This document shows positions 19,338 through 27,826 of a DNA stretch of 33,427 bases, one piece after another; the stretch's first letter is position 1, and every line of letters begins with the position of its first letter. The notes below the pieces were generated by a model, which worked only from the letters and a program-made list of their open reading frames with translations, made no database searches and was not told the DNA's origin. Made by a program: the position numbers and the translations under genes. The stretch is from Dehalococcoidia bacterium (GTDB lineage: Bacteria; Chloroflexota; Dehalococcoidia; UBA2979), in contig JAIBBD010000023.1 of assembly GCA_019694855.1 (NCBI GenBank), positions 1-33,427 of the forward strand, in the 5' to 3' direction.

Positions 19338-20476
19338 TCGGCCTGGCCATCCTTGGCTCGACCGGGTCGATTGGCGAGCAGGCGCTCGACGTCGTCCGCG
19401 CGCTTCCCGGCCGCTTCCGGGTCGTCGGCCTCGCTGCAGGCTCAAACACGGGCCGTCTCCGCACCCAGGTCGAGGAGTTCCGTCCCGCCGCTGTCTGGGC
19501 ACGCCCGGGCCACGAGGCGGACCTGCTCGCCGCGCACGTGGGCCGCGAGGCCTGGCAACCCATGGAGGAGATGGCCCGCCGGCCCGATGTCGACGTGGTG
19601 CTGGTTGCCACCTCGGGGCGGGCGGGGCTGGGCCCCACGCTCGCCGCGCTCGAGGCGAAGAAGGCCGTGGCCCTGGCGAACAAGGAAGCCCTCGTCGTCG
19701 GCGGGCGGGCTGTCCGCGAAGCGCTGGAACGGGGCGGCGAACTGCGGCCGGTGGACTCGGAGCACTCGGCGATCTGGCAGTGCCTGTGGGGCGAATCGCC
19801 GGAGTCCATCTCGAAACTCACGCTCACCGCGTCGGGCGGGGCGTTCCGCGACTACGACCTCGAGGCCCTCGACCGTGTGACGCCGGAGCAGGCGTTACGG
19901 CATCCCACCTGGCGCATGGGCCCGAAAGTGACGATCGATAGCGCGACGCTGTTCAATAAAGGGATGGAAGCGATCGAGGCGCGCTGGCTCTTCGATGTCC
20001 CGCTGGAGCGGGTGGACGTTCTGCAGCATCGCGAGAGCGTGGTGCACTCGCTGGTGACGTTCACCGACGGGTCGGTGAAGGCGCAGCTCGGCGAACCGGA
20101 CATGCGGCTGCCGATCCAGTGCGCGCTCACGTATCCCGAGCGCGGCGAGGTGCCGGCTCTGCCGCCCCTCGACCTCGCAGCGCGCGGAGCGCTGCACTTC
20201 GGCAAGGTCGACGACCAGCGCTTCCCGGCGCTGCGACTGGCGCTCGAAGCCGGGCGGCGCGACGACACCTCGGCGGCGGCGCTATCGGGGGCGGACGAGG
20301 CGGCGGTCGAGCACTTCCTCGCGGGCCGCTGCCGGTTCACCGACATCGCGCGGCTGCTCGAGCGGACGCTCGAGGCGCACCGGCCGGTGGTCGAGCGTCG
20401 CGTCGATGACCTGCTGGCGGCCGAGCGTTGGGGGACTGATTTCGTGAATACGGCCGTGACGGCGGGGATCGCATGA
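19334..20476 (+). CDS. dxr: 1-deoxy-D-xylulose 5-phosphate reductoisomerase
   Basis: Dxr (IspC) makes 2-C-methyl-D-erythritol 4-phosphate with NADPH in the MEP isoprenoid pathway. The 380-residue product has the NADPH motif LGSTGSIG at the N-terminus, ALANKEALV, the metal/substrate motif VDSEHSAIWQCL, LTASGGAFRD, and NKGMEAIEARWLF. Length is typical (about 385-400). ATG 19334 overlaps the cdsA stop; an open frame extends upstream through cdsA but is not Dxr-like. Its stop overlaps rseP as ATGA. With ispG at 23502 and uppS upstream, three isoprenoid-related genes cluster here. Confidence 0.97.
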   Translation: MIGLAILGSTGSIGEQALDVVRALPGRFRVVGLAAGSNTGRLRTQVEEFRPAAVWARPGHEADLLAAHVGREAWQPMEEMARRPDVDVVLVATSGRAGLGPTLAALEAKKAVALANKEALVVGGRAVREALERGGELRPVDSEHSAIWQCLWGESPESISKLTLTASGGAFRDYDLEALDRVTPEQALRHPTWRMGPKVTIDSATLFNKGMEAIEARWLFDVPLERVDVLQHRESVVHSLVTFTDGSVKAQLGEPDMRLPIQCALTYPERGEVPALPPLDLAARGALHFGKVDDQRFPALRLALEAGRRDDTSAAALSGADEAAVEHFLAGRCRFTDIARLLERTLEAHRPVVERRVDDLLAAERWGTDFVNTAVTAGIA

Positions 20477-21660
20477 CCGAACCACAGCAGGAGCCGCAGC
20501 AGGGACCTCAGCCCGAGGTCACGATGTCAAAGTGGCGCGCGCTGAGCATGCTCGGCATGGTGGTTGTCGCCCTCGCGCTGGCGCTCACGTTCGCGCGCGA
20601 CGCCACCTCGTCGGCGCTGCTCTTCGTGCTCATCCTCGTGGGGCTGGTGGTTGCGCACGAGTTCGCTCACTTCATCACCGCGAAGCTGTTCGGCGTCTAC
20701 GTGATCGAGTTCGGCATCGGCTTCCCGCCAAAGATCTGGGGGAAGCGCTTCGGCGAGACCGAGTACACGATCAACTGGCTGCCCATGGGCGGCTTCGTGC
20801 GGCTCATGGGCGAGGAAGACCCCACCCATCCTCGTTCGCTCGCCTCGCGTCCAAAGTGGCAGCGGCTCATCGTGCTCGCCTCGGGTTCGGTGATGAACCT
20901 GCTGCTGCCGATCCTGCTCTTCGCGATCGCCTTCACCATTCCGCACGAAGAGTCCGTCGGACGGGCCATCATCTCGGAAGTGGCGCCCGGCTCTCCCGCC
21001 GCTGAGGCGGGACTGCAGCCGCGTGACATCATCTACGAGATCGGCGGGCGAGACGCCAAGAACTCCATCGACGCGGGGCGGCTGATCCGCATCAACATGG
21101 GCCATGAGACCGACATCCAGGTGAAGCGCGGCAACGAGTTCGTGACGGTGCAGGTCACGCCTCGCTGGACGCCCCCCGCGGGGCAAGGGCCAACCGGCAT
21201 TCGCATTGCGCCGCAGTACGGCTTCACAGAGACGGTTTCGCAGCCGCCCTGGGAGTCACTCCCGAATGGACTGCGGACGACGGTCGACACCATGATCCTC
21301 GCGCGCAACGAGTTCATCTCCTGGTTCAAGGGCGGCAGCAGCCCCGAGGTAGCGGGCCCGGTCGCAATCGCGCAGACGACCGGCGAGGTCGCACGCGACG
21401 GCGGCGTCTCGCCCGTCCTCGAGCTGGCTGCGTTGCTGTCGATCAACCTCGGCATCATCAACCTGCTGCCGCTGCCGATGCTCGACGGCGGACGGGTGTT
21501 CTTCCTGCTCCTCGAGGTGCTGCGCGGCGGCCGCCGCATCGCGCCGGAGAAAGAGGCGATGGTGCACCTCGTGGGGTTCGTGGTGTTCATCGCGCTCGCG
21601 ATCGTCGTGACCTTCGCGGACGTCTCCCGCATCGTGAACGGCGAGTCGCTGTTCCGGTAA
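20473..21660 (+). CDS. rseP: RIP zinc metalloprotease RseP/site-2 protease
   Basis: An intramembrane protease that cleaves membrane substrates such as anti-sigma factors after site-1 cutting. The 395-residue product has HEFAH (His62-His66, in VVAHEFAHFITAKLFGVYV), a single PDZ domain (VAPGSPAAEAGLQPRDIIYEIGG region) and the second metal-ligand motif LLPLPMLDGGRVFF (LDG) near the end. A 17-residue Gln/Glu/Pro-rich start precedes an extra hydrophobic helix (about residues 24-40) before the HExxH helix, so ATG 20524 (MSKW) is an alternative start. It follows dxr with an ATGA overlap, the common dxr-rseP order. A short hairpin (21672-21685) lies after the stop. Confidence 0.95.
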   Translation: MTEPQQEPQQGPQPEVTMSKWRALSMLGMVVVALALALTFARDATSSALLFVLILVGLVVAHEFAHFITAKLFGVYVIEFGIGFPPKIWGKRFGETEYTINWLPMGGFVRLMGEEDPTHPRSLASRPKWQRLIVLASGSVMNLLLPILLFAIAFTIPHEESVGRAIISEVAPGSPAAEAGLQPRDIIYEIGGRDAKNSIDAGRLIRINMGHETDIQVKRGNEFVTVQVTPRWTPPAGQGPTGIRIAPQYGFTETVSQPPWESLPNGLRTTVDTMILARNEFISWFKGGSSPEVAGPVAIAQTTGEVARDGGVSPVLELAALLSINLGIINLLPLPMLDGGRVFFLLLEVLRGGRRIAPEKEAMVHLVGFVVFIALAIVVTFADVSRIVNGESLFR

Positions 21661-21715: not shown

Positions 21716-22183
21716 ATGACGCTCTCCGCGATCGAGATACGGCAGTTGCCGCCGCAACCGACGGCATGTATCCGCCGCAGCCTCCGTTACAGTCAGACCT
21801 CGACGATTCCAGAGCTGATTGGCAGGGTCGCCGAAGCGCTCGCGGAGGCCGGGCTCGAGCTCGTGGGCCGGCCATATACACGGGTGCTCTCGCTCGGCCT
21901 GCTCTCGATGGAGGTGGAGGTCGGCTGGCCCGTACCGGCGCCATTCGCCGGGCGGGGCGAGGTGACTGCGGGGGAGTTGCCGGGCGGCCCAGCCGCCGTG
22001 GCGTCGTACTTCGGCCCCTACGAGGACATCCGGCCCGCCTACGAGGCAATCGCCGCCTGGTGCAGGGATCACGGCCGCGCGGTCGCCGGTTCGCCCTGGG
22101 AGTCCTACTGCACCGACCCCGGCGAGGAGCCAGACTCCGCGAAGTGGCGGACTGATGTCGCGTTCCCGCTGCGGGACACGTAG
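21716..22183 (+). CDS. GyrI-like small-molecule-binding domain protein
   Basis: A 155-residue single-domain protein of the GyrI-like/AraC effector-binding fold (SHS2 duplication). The segment IRRSLRYSQTSTIPELIGRV, then EVEVGWPVPAPFAG and ELPGGPAAVASYFGPYEDIR, is the typical 'xxGxxxxxxHxGPYxxLxxay' pattern of this fold, followed by SPWESYCTDP. No helix-turn-helix is attached, so it is a stand-alone ligand-binding module, perhaps a hydrolase or sequestering protein as reported for some GyrI-like members. It starts 55 nt after rseP. The Shine-Dalgarno is weak. The ligand is unknown. Confidence 0.78.
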   Translation: MTLSAIEIRQLPPQPTACIRRSLRYSQTSTIPELIGRVAEALAEAGLELVGRPYTRVLSLGLLSMEVEVGWPVPAPFAGRGEVTAGELPGGPAAVASYFGPYEDIRPAYEAIAAWCRDHGRAVAGSPWESYCTDPGEEPDSAKWRTDVAFPLRDT

Positions 22184-22244: not shown

Positions 22245-22838
22245 ATGGCGACACATGGGGCTGCGGGCAGCACATCGCGCTTCAGCGCGTGGCGACCGGG
22301 CGCATTCGCGGCGGCCCTTGCCGTGCTCGGCGCACTCACCGCGGCAGCGGTTGCCTCGATGCTCTGGCCGGACGTCGAGGACCGTCGGGATGTGGTGGTG
22401 CAGTTCGATCCGGGCGGTCCGGTCGCGCAGCCGTTTCAGCTGTTCGACCTCGACGGGTGGCTGGTGCGCCAGCCGGATGAGAGCGTGCGTGCGTTCTCCG
22501 CAGCGGAGGCGCGGACGGCATGCGGCATCTTCTTTGTGAGTCGCAATGATCGGTACTTTGGGCTGACAGGCGCGGCCCGTCGGGGTGAGCAGGGCTTCTT
22601 CACCGACCACTGCTGGGGCTCGACGTGGACACTCGAAGGTGCGATTACCTTCGGGCCGAGCTGGCGGGGGATGGACGAGTTCGAGGTCCGTCAGAGCACG
22701 GGCGGACGCGTGAGTCTCGACCTGAGCCGTGTGCGCCTCGGGATGTGCGCACGCGGGGCCGAGGACCTGGATTGCTCGCTTCCCGGTCACGCGCGCTATC
22801 GACGGCCACGGGCCGGGCATGCCTGGTCGTTCTGGTGA
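22245..22838 (+). CDS. Membrane-anchored Rieske-fold protein without Fe-S ligands (copy 1)
   Basis: A 197-residue protein with one N-terminal transmembrane helix (about residues 18-41) and an outward domain. The text [20 protein letters not shown] and GSTWTLEGAITFGPSWRGMD follows the Rieske pattern, but all four cluster ligands are changed: box I CxH reads Glu88/Arg90, box II reads Asp121/Trp124. The two cysteines that form the Rieske disulfide remain (Cys93, Cys123). A second pair, Cys168/Cys177, lies near the end. ATG 22245 aligns with the start of the next gene, a tandem paralogue (stop and start overlap by 1 nt); ATG 22206 is an alternative. Function unknown; it cannot bind a normal [2Fe-2S] cluster. 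Confidence 0.7.
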   Translation: MATHGAAGSTSRFSAWRPGAFAAALAVLGALTAAAVASMLWPDVEDRRDVVVQFDPGGPVAQPFQLFDLDGWLVRQPDESVRAFSAAEARTACGIFFVSRNDRYFGLTGAARRGEQGFFTDHCWGSTWTLEGAITFGPSWRGMDEFEVRQSTGGRVSLDLSRVRLGMCARGAEDLDCSLPGHARYRRPRAGHAWSFW

Positions 22839-23467
22839 TGGGTGCGATGGCCGGTGACGGCGCGGTGCACCGCTCGTCGCGATCGGCGTGGAGACGACTC
22901 ACCTTCGGACTGGCGCTGCTCGGTCTGGCCGTGCTGGTCGCCGTCGCGGTCGCCTCGATGCTCTGGCCGTTGGTCGAGGACCGCTCAAACGTGGATGTGC
23001 CGTTCGAGGCGAGAGGAGCCGTCGCTCAACGGTTCTCGGCGTTTGGCCTCGATGGGTGGCTGGTGCGGCAGGCCGATGGGAGTGTGCGGGCGTTTTCGGC
23101 CGCTGACGCGCACCTCCGATGCCGTGTCGAGTTCATTCCGGTGGGGCACCCACTCTACGCCGTGCGCAGCACATGGAAGGGTCTCGAACGGGGGATGTTC
23201 GTCGACCGCTGTATGCACTCGCTCTATGACGCGGACGGCAAACCACTGTACGGGCCGGCGCCGTGGGGTCTTGATGAGTTCCTCGTGCACGAGGTACACG
23301 GCGGGCGTCTGTACCTCGATTTGTCACGGGTGATGCGGGGCGAGTGCTCCCCCGGCCTTTCGTCGACGCAGTATTGTTCGGTGCCCGGACGACCGAGGTT
23401 CGGCGAACCAGCTCGTGTCGATGAGGGGTATACGTCGCGGTTCATCTGGCCGGTTGCCATCCGGTAG
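22838..23467 (+). CDS. Membrane-anchored Rieske-fold protein without Fe-S ligands (copy 2)
   Basis: A 209-residue paralogue of the preceding gene. A transmembrane helix covers about residues 21-43. The domain aligns to Rieske proteins without gaps: [20 protein letters not shown] then CRVEF for box I, and [20 protein letters not shown] for box II. Box I has Asp90 for the first Cys but keeps His92; box II has Asp123 for Cys and Met126 for His. The disulfide cysteines Cys95 and Cys125 remain, as does the GPAP turn. Cys170/Cys180 form a possible second disulfide. It starts on the last base of the upstream stop (TGATG), so the pair is co-translated. Role unknown; perhaps a structural or binding module. 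Confidence 0.72.
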
Positions 23468-23501: not shown

Positions 23502-24659
23502 ATGGCAGACATCCACCTCATCGAGACCAAGCCCCGCAACGAGACCCGAGCCGTGCGCGTCGGCAACGTCACGATCGGCGGCGGAGCGCCGATCGCCGTG
23601 CAGTCGATGGCGGCGACCAAGACGCAGAACATCGAGGCGACCGTGCGGCAGGTGCAGCTCCTCGAGGCGGCCGGGGCAGATCTCGTGCGCATCGCCGTCG
23701 ACTCGCGCAAAGACGTCGAGGCACTGGCGGAGATCCGCGGGCGTACCTCGGCCGTGCTGTCGGTGGACCTGCAGGAAAATTACCGCCTGGCGGAGTTCGT
23801 CGCCCCGCACGTCAACAAGATCCGCTACAACCCGGGGCACCTCTACCACCACGAGCGCGAGAAGCCGGTGCGCGACAAGGTCGCCTTCATCGCGGAGATC
23901 GCGCAGCGCAACGACTGCGCCCTGCGCGTCGGAGTGAACTGCGGCTCGGTGGACCCGGTGATGACCGCGAAGTTCGGCGACGACGATGTCGGCGCGATGG
24001 TCGCCAGCGCCCTCGAGCACTGCGCGATCCTCGACGACCTCGGGTTCACCCGCTACGTGGTCTCGATGAAGGACTCGGACTGGAAGAAAGTCGTCGAGGG
24101 CAATCAACGTTTTGCGGCCCAGCGGCCGGACGTCCCCCTGCACCTCGGCGTGACCGAGGCGGGGATGCCGCCCGAGGGCATCATCAAGACGCGCGTCGCC
24201 TTCGAGCAGCTGATCCCGCAGGGCATCGGCGACACGATCCGCGTCTCGCTGACGCTGCCGTTCGAGCGCAAAGGCGAGGAGATTGCCGTTGGGCGCGAGA
24301 TCCTCGCGGACATCGCCGCGGGACGGTTCCGCTCCGTGCCGCCTCGATTCGGCGAGGGGCTGAACATCATCTCGTGCCCCTCGTGCTCTCGCGTGGAGAA
24401 CGAGGCGTTCATCGAGCTGGCGCAGCACGTCAAGGAGATGGCCGCGTACGCGCAGGACTACGCGATCACGATCGCGGTGATGGGCTGCCGCGTGAACGGC
24501 CCCGGCGAGACCGACGACGCGGACCTCGGTCTGTGGTGCGGGCCGGCGGCGGTGAACCTCAAGCGCGGCGAGGAGTCGCTGGGCGCCTACCCGTACGACG
24601 AGGTGCTGGACCGGCTGCGCGTGGAGCTCGATGCGATCATTGAGGCGCGCCGCAGGTAG
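23502..24659 (+). CDS. ispG: (E)-4-hydroxy-3-methylbut-2-enyl-diphosphate synthase
   Basis: IspG (GcpE) makes HMBPP from MEcPP, the penultimate MEP-pathway step, using a [4Fe-4S] cluster. The 385-residue product has [17 protein letters not shown] at the N-terminus, the barrel segments [16 protein letters not shown] and KIRYNPGHL, and the cluster ligands in [12 protein letters not shown] and the third Cys in [10 protein letters not shown]. It is the short two-domain bacterial form. ATG 23502 fits the conserved start; the open frame upstream is not IspG-like. GAGGAT 7 nt before ATG could be a -10 box or, as GAGG, a distant Shine-Dalgarno. It is followed by the left palindrome of the DUF559 unit. 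Confidence 0.97.
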
Positions 24660-26206: not shown

Positions 26207-27826
26207 ATGCGATTCTTCCTGATCGTGTCGGCTCTGGTAGTGCTGGTGGCCGCGGTGGCGAGCTACGCGATCCGCACGGAGACGGCACCGGCGAACGCGC
26301 AACATGGCGGCCCACACATCACCGTGAACAAGGAATGCGTGCCATCGCCGCCCGCGGGCGACACATCCATCTTCAACGTGCAGGTGGTCAACGCGCAGGC
26401 GACGGTGGTCGCCGGGCCTTCGCCGCTCCAGTGCGGTGGCTCGGTGACGTACGACCTGCAGTTCAACACGAACTACACCCTGCAAGAGACGGTCGTCCCG
26501 CCCGGTTGGCTCACTGGCGGCAACAACGTCAGCATCCGCGGAGCCTGCAACGGTGACGGCACCATCATCGTCTCCTCGACGCAGCCGAACCCGGACGGGA
26601 CGTGCGTGATCCGCAACACGCCGGACCTGCGGACGTTGACGATCACGAAGGTGTGCAACCCATCGAATCAGCCCGGCACCTTCACGATCCAGGTGCGCGA
26701 CCTGAACCAGAACATCGTGGCAACCGTGCAGCTCGCCTGCGGCCAGACCAGCGCGCCGATTTCGGTGCTCAACAACATCTCGTACCGCCTGGTCGAGCAG
26801 GGCAACGTCATTCCGACGTTCGGGGGCCTGTGCGACGTCGAGGGCGTCTTCCACCTCAACGACGCGAATGGCAACTGCACGGTGACGAACGACCTCAGTG
26901 ACACACCGACCGTGCAGCTGCAGAAGCTCTGCGTCCCGGCGAACATCCCCGGCCTCTTCACGCTCAACCTGTTCGCCGGAAACCTGCTGGTCGCCTCGTA
27001 CGACCTGGCCTGCGGACAGCTGAGCCCCCTCATCCCGATTCAGCTCGGCGTCCAGTACACGGTGGTCGAGTCGCCCAAGACCGGGTTCCCGCCGCCAACG
27101 TGGAGCAACCTCTGCACGCAGAGCGTCCAGGGCAACGGCCAGTTCACGATCCCTCTGAACTCCGAGGTGATCCACGGCATCTGCACCGCGACGAACCGCG
27201 TGCCGACCGTGACCATCCGCAAGCTCTGCGACACCACCACGAACGACATCTTCCAAATCAACGTGACGCAGCAGGGTTCGAACCAGCCGACGCATGTCGT
27301 GAACATCGGGTGTGGCGGGACCAGCGGCGAGCTGCCGGTGCTGCCGAACATCGTGTACGTGGTCACCGAGGTGCCCGAAGCAGGCTGGCAGTCACAGCCG
27401 ACGTTCGACATCGACTGCGCGCCCAACGGCGTGTTCTCGCTCACGGATGGCGACATCTCGGACGCGTGCATCGTGATCAACCACCGGCAGCAGCCGACGC
27501 CGACGCCTACGCGCACGCCGACGGCGACGCCGACCTCGACGCCGACGCAGACCCAGACCGCGACGCCGACCTCGACGCCCACCCAGACGGCCACGGCGAC
27601 GCCGACGCAGACGGCCACGCCGACCTCGACGCCGACGACGGTGACGACACCGACGCCCACGCAGACCTCGACCTCCACGACCGTGTCCACGGGCCCGACG
27701 GTGACGCCGGTCCCGCCGAAGACGGGAAGCGGCGGCATCGATGAGAGCGCGAGCGTCCCGTGGATGCTCATCATGGCGCTGGCCATCGGGACGCCGGCGG
27801 TGCTCGTCCTGCGACGCCGCGCGTAG
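26207..27826 (+). CDS. Four-repeat secreted surface protein with Thr/Pro stalk and C-terminal anchor
   Basis: A 539-residue exported protein: signal peptide (about residues 1-32, ending ANAQ), four tandem beta-rich repeats at about 38-140, 143-231, 235-330 and 331-425, a Thr/Pro stalk (430-502), then PPKTGSGG, a hydrophobic helix and RRRA. Each repeat begins with a strand plus Lys-x-Cys (KEC, KVC, KLC, KLC), has a central CG (QCGG, ACGQ, ACGQ, GCGG) and two later cysteines, suggesting two disulfides per unit; the fold resembles prealbumin/SpaA-like or Cna-B modules. The tail order (PPKTG, helix, Arg) mimics a sortase signal with Pro for Leu. No sortase is in the window. Likely an extracellular stalk or adhesion protein; ligand unknown. 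Confidence 0.85.
   Translation: MRFFLIVSALVVLVAAVASYAIRTETAPANAQHGGPHITVNKECVPSPPAGDTSIFNVQVVNAQATVVAGPSPLQCGGSVTYDLQFNTNYTLQETVVPPGWLTGGNNVSIRGACNGDGTIIVSSTQPNPDGTCVIRNTPDLRTLTITKVCNPSNQPGTFTIQVRDLNQNIVATVQLACGQTSAPISVLNNISYRLVEQGNVIPTFGGLCDVEGVFHLNDANGNCTVTNDLSDTPTVQLQKLCVPANIPGLFTLNLFAGNLLVASYDLACGQLSPLIPIQLGVQYTVVESPKTGFPPPTWSNLCTQSVQGNGQFTIPLNSEVIHGICTATNRVPTVTIRKLCDTTTNDIFQINVTQQGSNQPTHVVNIGCGGTSGELPVLPNIVYVVTEVPEAGWQSQPTFDIDCAPNGVFSLTDGDISDACIVINHRQQPTPTPTRTPTATPTSTPTQTQTATPTSTPTQTATATPTQTATPTSTPTTVTTPTPTQTSTSTTVSTGPTVTPVPPKTGSGGIDESASVPWMLIMALAIGTPAVLVLRRRA
27494..27712 (+). repeat. Low-complexity Thr/Pro-coding repeat
   Basis: Imperfect tandem copies of ACGCCGAC-type units encode PTPTPTRTPTATPTSTPTQT and similar text. 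It forms the extended, probably O-glycosylatable stalk between the fourth domain and the membrane anchor. Such DNA is prone to length change by slippage. Confidence 0.85.

Follow-up and report, generated by a model that had tools for sequence, protein, structure and literature searches.

The Rieske-like Gene Pair

The window is a 33,427-nucleotide stretch of DNA from a Dehalococcoidia bacterium. It carries two adjacent genes, referred to here as copy 1 and copy 2 (Table 1), whose junction reads TGATG, such that the stop codon of the first overlaps the start codon of the second. The open reading frames, coordinates, and residues named in an earlier note on this DNA are all as claimed there, as is the architecture that it assigned to both proteins, namely a single N-terminal membrane helix and an extra C-terminal cysteine pair. 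The latter is found in 16 of 18 close homologues (the window copies counted), whereas both true Rieske proteins used for comparison lack it.

Table 1. Features of the gene pair and its flanking genes, in window positions.
Feature	Position	Strand	Basis
RseP-type M50 site-2 protease	20473..21660	+	PF02163, E 2.5e-55
GyrI-like small-molecule-binding domain protein	21716..22183	+	PF06445, E 5.3e-17
Copy 1, 197-aa membrane-anchored Rieske-fold protein without cluster ligands	22245..22838	+	ORF and translation; Rieske-only profile; AlphaFold model
Copy 1, membrane helix, residues 16-40	22290..22364	+	Model secondary structure; hydropathy
Copy 1, box I, E88-A-R90-T-A-C93 replacing C-x-H-x-x-C	22506..22523	+	Residue reading; homologue ligand table
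Copy 1, box II, D121-H-C123-W124-G-S replacing C-x-C-H-G-S	22605..22622	+	Residue reading; homologue ligand table
Copy 1, C-terminal cysteine pair, C168/C177	22746..22775	+	Residue reading
Copy 2, 209-aa membrane-anchored Rieske-fold protein without cluster ligands	22838..23467	+	ORF and translation; Rieske-only profile; AlphaFold model
Copy 2, membrane helix, residues 15-42	22880..22963	+	Model secondary structure
Copy 2, box I, D90-A-H92-L-R-C95	23105..23122	+	Residue reading; homologue ligand table
Copy 2, box II, D123-R-C125-M126-H-S	23204..23221	+	Residue reading; homologue ligand table
Copy 2, C-terminal cysteine pair, C170/C180	23345..23377	+	Residue reading
ispG (GcpE)	23502..24659	+	PF04551, E 2e-101

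The immediate neighbors of the pair are rseP, the GyrI-like gene, and ispG, with no cytochrome b gene and no redox operon among them. In most relatives whose flank reaches that far, rseP lies close upstream of ispG, and the pair is therefore regarded as a lineage-specific insertion. A tie to isoprenoid or RseP function was considered and rejected as a general explanation, since most relatives have no such gene between rseP and ispG. In G041 and G007, which belong to two other genera, the same gap holds a single Rieske-like gene (L162, L177) that is more degenerate and lacks the loop cysteines. The GC3 of the window copies is 0.77-0.78 versus 0.85-0.93 for the adjacent genes, a difference that fits weaker constraint.

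The insertion, the lower GC3, and the still more degenerate single genes of G041 and G007 would agree with a decaying or weakly constrained duplicate without present function, within a wider family that is functional. Such decay is nevertheless unlikely for the window pair, in which the frames are intact across 406 codons and, at only 47% mutual identity, the disulfide and C-terminal cysteine pairs and a good part of the turn described below are kept, an outcome not expected of drift alone.

Farther along the window (26207-27826) lies a gene for a 539-aa repetitive, cysteine-containing protein whose linker is rich in Thr/Pro and whose C-terminus forms a hydrophobic anchor. It has no Pfam match and is apparently extracellular.

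A Rieske Fold without Cluster Ligands

Relative to the Rieske boxes, four of four cluster ligands are replaced in copy 1 and three of four in copy 2, where His92 of box I remains. Residue reading confirms the occupants of the ligand positions that the earlier note had listed (E88/R90 and D121/W124; D90/H92 and D123/M126). The second cysteine of each box, characteristic of the disulfide of high-potential Rieske proteins, is present in both copies as C93/C123 and C95/C125, which align on the disulfide cysteines of Rieske proteins in the PDB, as had been proposed. Because the C-x-H and C-x2-H ligand sets were tested for and are intact in neither copy, the pair, judged by its residues, is not a functional member of the [2Fe-2S] Rieske family.

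Single-sequence scans of copy 1 and copy 2 against Pfam and NCBIfam return no Rieske match at E≤10. Profiles are more sensitive. An alignment of 14 homologues (A1), used as a profile against the PDB, ranks Rieske chains first (E 3e-11, 1e-10, and 3e-9), with both cysteines falling on the Rieske disulfide cysteines and the ligand positions substituted. With a profile made of ligand-bearing Chloroflexota Rieske proteins alone, copy 2 reaches 46.0 bits and copy 1 38.2 bits, far above the respective maxima of 12.5 and 7.1 bits obtained with 2,500 shuffles of each copy. The profile search that had been suggested as a check thus fails for single sequences in the public libraries and succeeds with the Rieske-only profile. 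The hhalign probability rises from 98.5% for copy 1 and copy 2 as a pair to 99.7% with the 14-row alignment. Eight of the 14 A1 members match NCBIfam PetC models (best E 2.7e-6), although below the curated cut-offs, and PF13806 (Rieske_2) gives a weak match in one family member only (E 0.0055).

The AlphaFold2 models consist of the N-terminal helix and a beta domain, with a mean pLDDT of 85.4 for copy 1 and 84.1 for copy 2. Structural comparison with Rieske domains, the other check proposed beforehand, gives a clear superposition on PetC3 (5cxm) over 96 residues, with Z 11.2 and an rmsd of 2.1 Å for copy 1 and Z 10.6 and 2.2 Å for copy 2. In a structure search with the models, Rieske-fold entries account for all of the 50 matches listed for each copy. 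The assignment of a Rieske fold to both proteins is secure. Sequence comparison further shows the pair to be related by descent to cytochrome bc/b6f-type Rieske proteins. That neither protein is called by Pfam or NCBIfam might suggest a chance resemblance with no Rieske kinship, but this explanation is refuted by the Rieske-only profile against its 5,000 shuffles, as well as by the A1-PDB and structure matches, and its probability is negligible.

With the Rieske subunit of the bc1/b6f complexes (QcrA/PetC), the window copies share the fold, the geometry of the boxes, the inter-loop disulfide cysteines, the single N-terminal anchor, and a GPAP-type turn. The turn had been described as GPAP-like, and its exact letters can now be refined to GPSWRGMDEF in copy 1 and to a corresponding ten-residue sequence in copy 2. 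The copies differ from QcrA/PetC in their replaced ligands, in the lack of a clear Tat motif, in the C-terminal cysteine pair, and in the segment between the boxes. The alignment to the Rieske boxes, held earlier to be gapless, is so within box I and box II; between them it is not, the spacer being longer in both copies than in true Rieske proteins. The two copies are also encoded by separate genes, while a ligand-bearing bc-type Rieske protein (C47, L002; boxes CPHLGC/CPCHGS) is encoded elsewhere in the same genome.

Distribution and Conservation of the Family

Every one of the 44 genomes in the taxonomic family has a match to the A1 profile when true Rieske proteins are counted, and cluster-less homologues verified by box reading occur in 38 of the 44 (a hand count from the locus list). 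Cluster-less members also reach beyond that family, both within the class (L187, L188, L190) and elsewhere among the Chloroflexota families (L191, L199). A scan of genome contigs with the subfamily pattern NPWPRLL places the named relatives in Dehalococcoidia/Chloroflexi MAGs; the corresponding pattern scan of genome contigs with copy 2 yields no relative. The genome of the window itself (2.46 Mb, 130 contigs) also harbors a suf-linked copy (C35) and a second tandem pair (C53).

The ligand table spans about 110 homologues, of which 70 cluster-less rows were used for the conservation counts. The two disulfide cysteines are retained in 66 and 67 of these rows, and in A1 they make up two of only five invariant columns. 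A few members of the family (L030, L026, L113) have lost the disulfide too. Among 13 close pairs of relatives, dN/dS is 0.13-0.46, from which it follows that the cluster-less family is under purifying selection in these relatives. A search of openly licensed papers found no description of a Chloroflexota cluster-less Rieske family, which is conserved and apparently undescribed so far.

Aspartate occupies the position of the ligand cysteine in 60 of the 70 rows for box II and in 25 for box I, and the box I histidine is retained in 23, as in copy 2, so that the homologues with partial ligands sought by the earlier note do exist. These substitutions could indicate a converted ligand site, in which Asp90 and Asp123 of copy 2, with His92, Met126, or His127, would bind another metal ion in a metal-binding or metal-sensing domain; some members even keep one or both histidines. 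However, the residues of copy 1 (Glu88, Arg90, Asp121, and Trp124) are unlikely to form a metal site, the box II histidine position is mostly Ser, Thr, or Gly across the family, and the conserved aspartate could equally stabilize the loop through hydrogen bonds. A converted metal site is accordingly quite unlikely.

Two relatives, L030 (G015:C95; STHLGR/EPSHSE) and L026 (G020:C200; SPHIGN/EARHGE), keep both ligand histidines together with a glutamate and have lost all four cysteines, possibly creating a two-histidine, one-carboxylate site. Further variants of the L030 type, with both histidines, were searched for and occur only sporadically. In L114 (G058:C20) and L115 (G059:C61), box I (SPHRGC and SPHLGC) keeps its histidine, and box II reads DPCTGS and DPCYSS; these proteins are possible intermediates of ligand loss.

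The conservation of the cysteines admits a different interpretation, in which the disulfides are redox-active and the proteins act outside the membrane as thiol-disulfide oxidoreductases or redox sensors. Few features are conserved as well as the disulfide cysteines, and the C-terminal pair is specific to the family. Yet the cysteines of the Rieske disulfide are structural in true Rieske proteins (PMC12219900), there is no CxxC motif, and the neighborhoods read contain no pointer to a disulfide relay. A redox-active role is hence improbable.

Export and Membrane Anchoring

Bacterial Rieske proteins acquire their cofactor in the cytoplasm and are exported in the folded state by the Tat pathway, as stated, with reference to earlier work, in PMC12219900. 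The presence of a Tat-like sequence was defined as an RRx[FLIVM] motif ahead of the anchor, a test of sequence motif only. The motif is found in 33 of 36 ligand-bearing Rieske proteins versus 4 of 70 cluster-less rows (Fisher p 1.4e-19), and the median hydrophobicity of the anchor is 2.60 in cluster-less versus 1.90 in ligand-bearing proteins (p 5e-16); the contrast is large, although both p-values overstate independence because the rows are related. Copy 1 has no RR, and copy 2 has WRRLTF, which lies outside the usual SRRxFLK context.

Proteins that no longer receive a cofactor before export would be expected to lose the Tat motif alongside the ligands, and this loss may be taken as an independent sign of cofactor loss. 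Together with purifying selection on the relatives, this parallel loss supports the earlier proposal that the fold has been reused outside the membrane without its cluster.

Ligand Loss and Duplication

A tree was calculated from the 81 columns left after removal of the six diagnostic columns; it is weakly resolved and has long branches. The window copies are each other's nearest rows (SH-aLRT 88), and next to them fall one tandem pair (G012) and one further pair (G001). A single clade of all cluster-less proteins is not rejected (p-AU 0.51). Since the close relatives of the window pair also lack the ligands and a single clade is compatible with the data, ligand loss most likely predates the window duplication. 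Differences between the copies, such as H92 versus R90, thus look like drift after ligand loss. The earlier note had read the duplication and its differing losses as suggesting divergence of function, a claim that is unsupported as stated, given the probably older date of the loss. Several independent losses of the ligands were also considered; the free tree needs three changes, and the one-clade tree is no worse.

Gene Neighborhoods of the Relatives

The core subfamily is convergent (tail-to-tail) with sufT-sufU, and with sufS where the flank extends, in 18 of 18 named loci and, with few exceptions, in the family loci read. As the neighbor is convergent and cytoplasmic, this adjacency need not mean a common function, and a role of the core subfamily in SUF assembly was not adopted. 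The core gene (L032/L033, C35:10072-10632 in the genome of the window; L119-L136) also adjoins genes for an ABC-type substrate-binding protein and a GlcF-like protein.

A second subfamily is itself a tandem pair (L034:4042-5187, C53 in the genome of the window; L099-L108, L013, L025, L027). It adjoins an acyl-CoA ligase gene in 14 of 14 loci checked and an enoyl-CoA hydratase gene wherever the flank extends. In the five loci with a longer flank, the next gene encodes a 740-aa NarI-like/4Fe-4S/CCG protein with the architecture of EtfD/EMO, followed in three of the five by ETF genes. EtfD/EMO is the ETF:menaquinone oxidoreductase of beta-oxidation (PMC13083937), and the beta-oxidation operon context points to this enzyme as the putative partner of the tandem-pair subfamily.

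Precedents and Proposed Function

Precedents for ligand-less Rieske domains exist in PSB33/TEF5 and in some NirD proteins. NirD, the small subunit of assimilatory nitrite reductase (Rieske_2), is cytoplasmic and tied to NirB, unlike the membrane-anchored window pair. It resembles the pair in having a Rieske fold with substituted ligands in some members, as in Bacillus bataviensis, where ligand Cys and His are replaced (PMC3475470).

PSB33 (LIL8/TEF5) of plants and green algae is a photosystem II assembly factor with a membrane-anchored Rieske-like domain that lacks the cluster ligands (PMC12164590, PMC8003979), an organization similar to that of the window copies. Its anchor, however, is C-terminal and the protein faces the stroma, whereas the window copies have an N-terminal anchor and Dehalococcoidia relatives. 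PSB33/TEF5 also keeps only the cysteine of the second motif (PMC8003979), in contrast to the two kept in each window copy. Common descent of PSB33/TEF5 and the Chloroflexota family is not supported by the evidence presented here.

The window pair consists of duplicated members of the Chloroflexota cluster-less Rieske family. The two proteins probably derive from the Rieske protein of the bc complex and serve as a redox-silent extracytoplasmic scaffold, or help membrane redox complexes to assemble or remain stable. By analogy with PSB33/TEF5 and photosystem II, such a scaffold or assembly role would be the most likely one. It is hypothesized that the proteins are inserted unfolded via Sec/YidC and fold outside the membrane, upon which the Rieske disulfide and the second, C-terminal disulfide would form. 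Electron carriage would be impossible. Instead, the conserved aspartate and the disulfide may fix the two loops of the former cluster site to each other in a rigid tip for protein-protein docking, and the former cluster tip would present the docking surface for a membrane complex.

A broader and more tentative proposal, for which the case is at present doubtful, is that the Rieske protein of the bc complex has been converted in Chloroflexota into a class of several redox-silent extracytoplasmic subunits that serve iron-sulfur-dependent membrane oxidoreductases. This class would include an obligate two-subunit cluster-less module of EtfD, with the window pair as one more such module.

Textbooks present Rieske proteins as electron carriers. 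An entire family is described here that lacks the cofactor ligands, with its fold and disulfide cysteines under selection and its Tat motif lost alongside. Two ideas could be put to a natural test in this family: that cofactor insertion is what obliges Rieske proteins to use Tat, and that their docking surface is of value even without electron transfer. In addition, a Rieske-like fold in a Chloroflexota protein should not be taken to indicate an electron carrier, and the beta-oxidation/EtfD operon gains a candidate component that had gone unrecognized. In other families of the class (L209/L210; G345:C19, G038:C49), cluster-less Rieske genes lie beside a gene for an FAD-dependent, geranylgeranyl-reductase-like protein.
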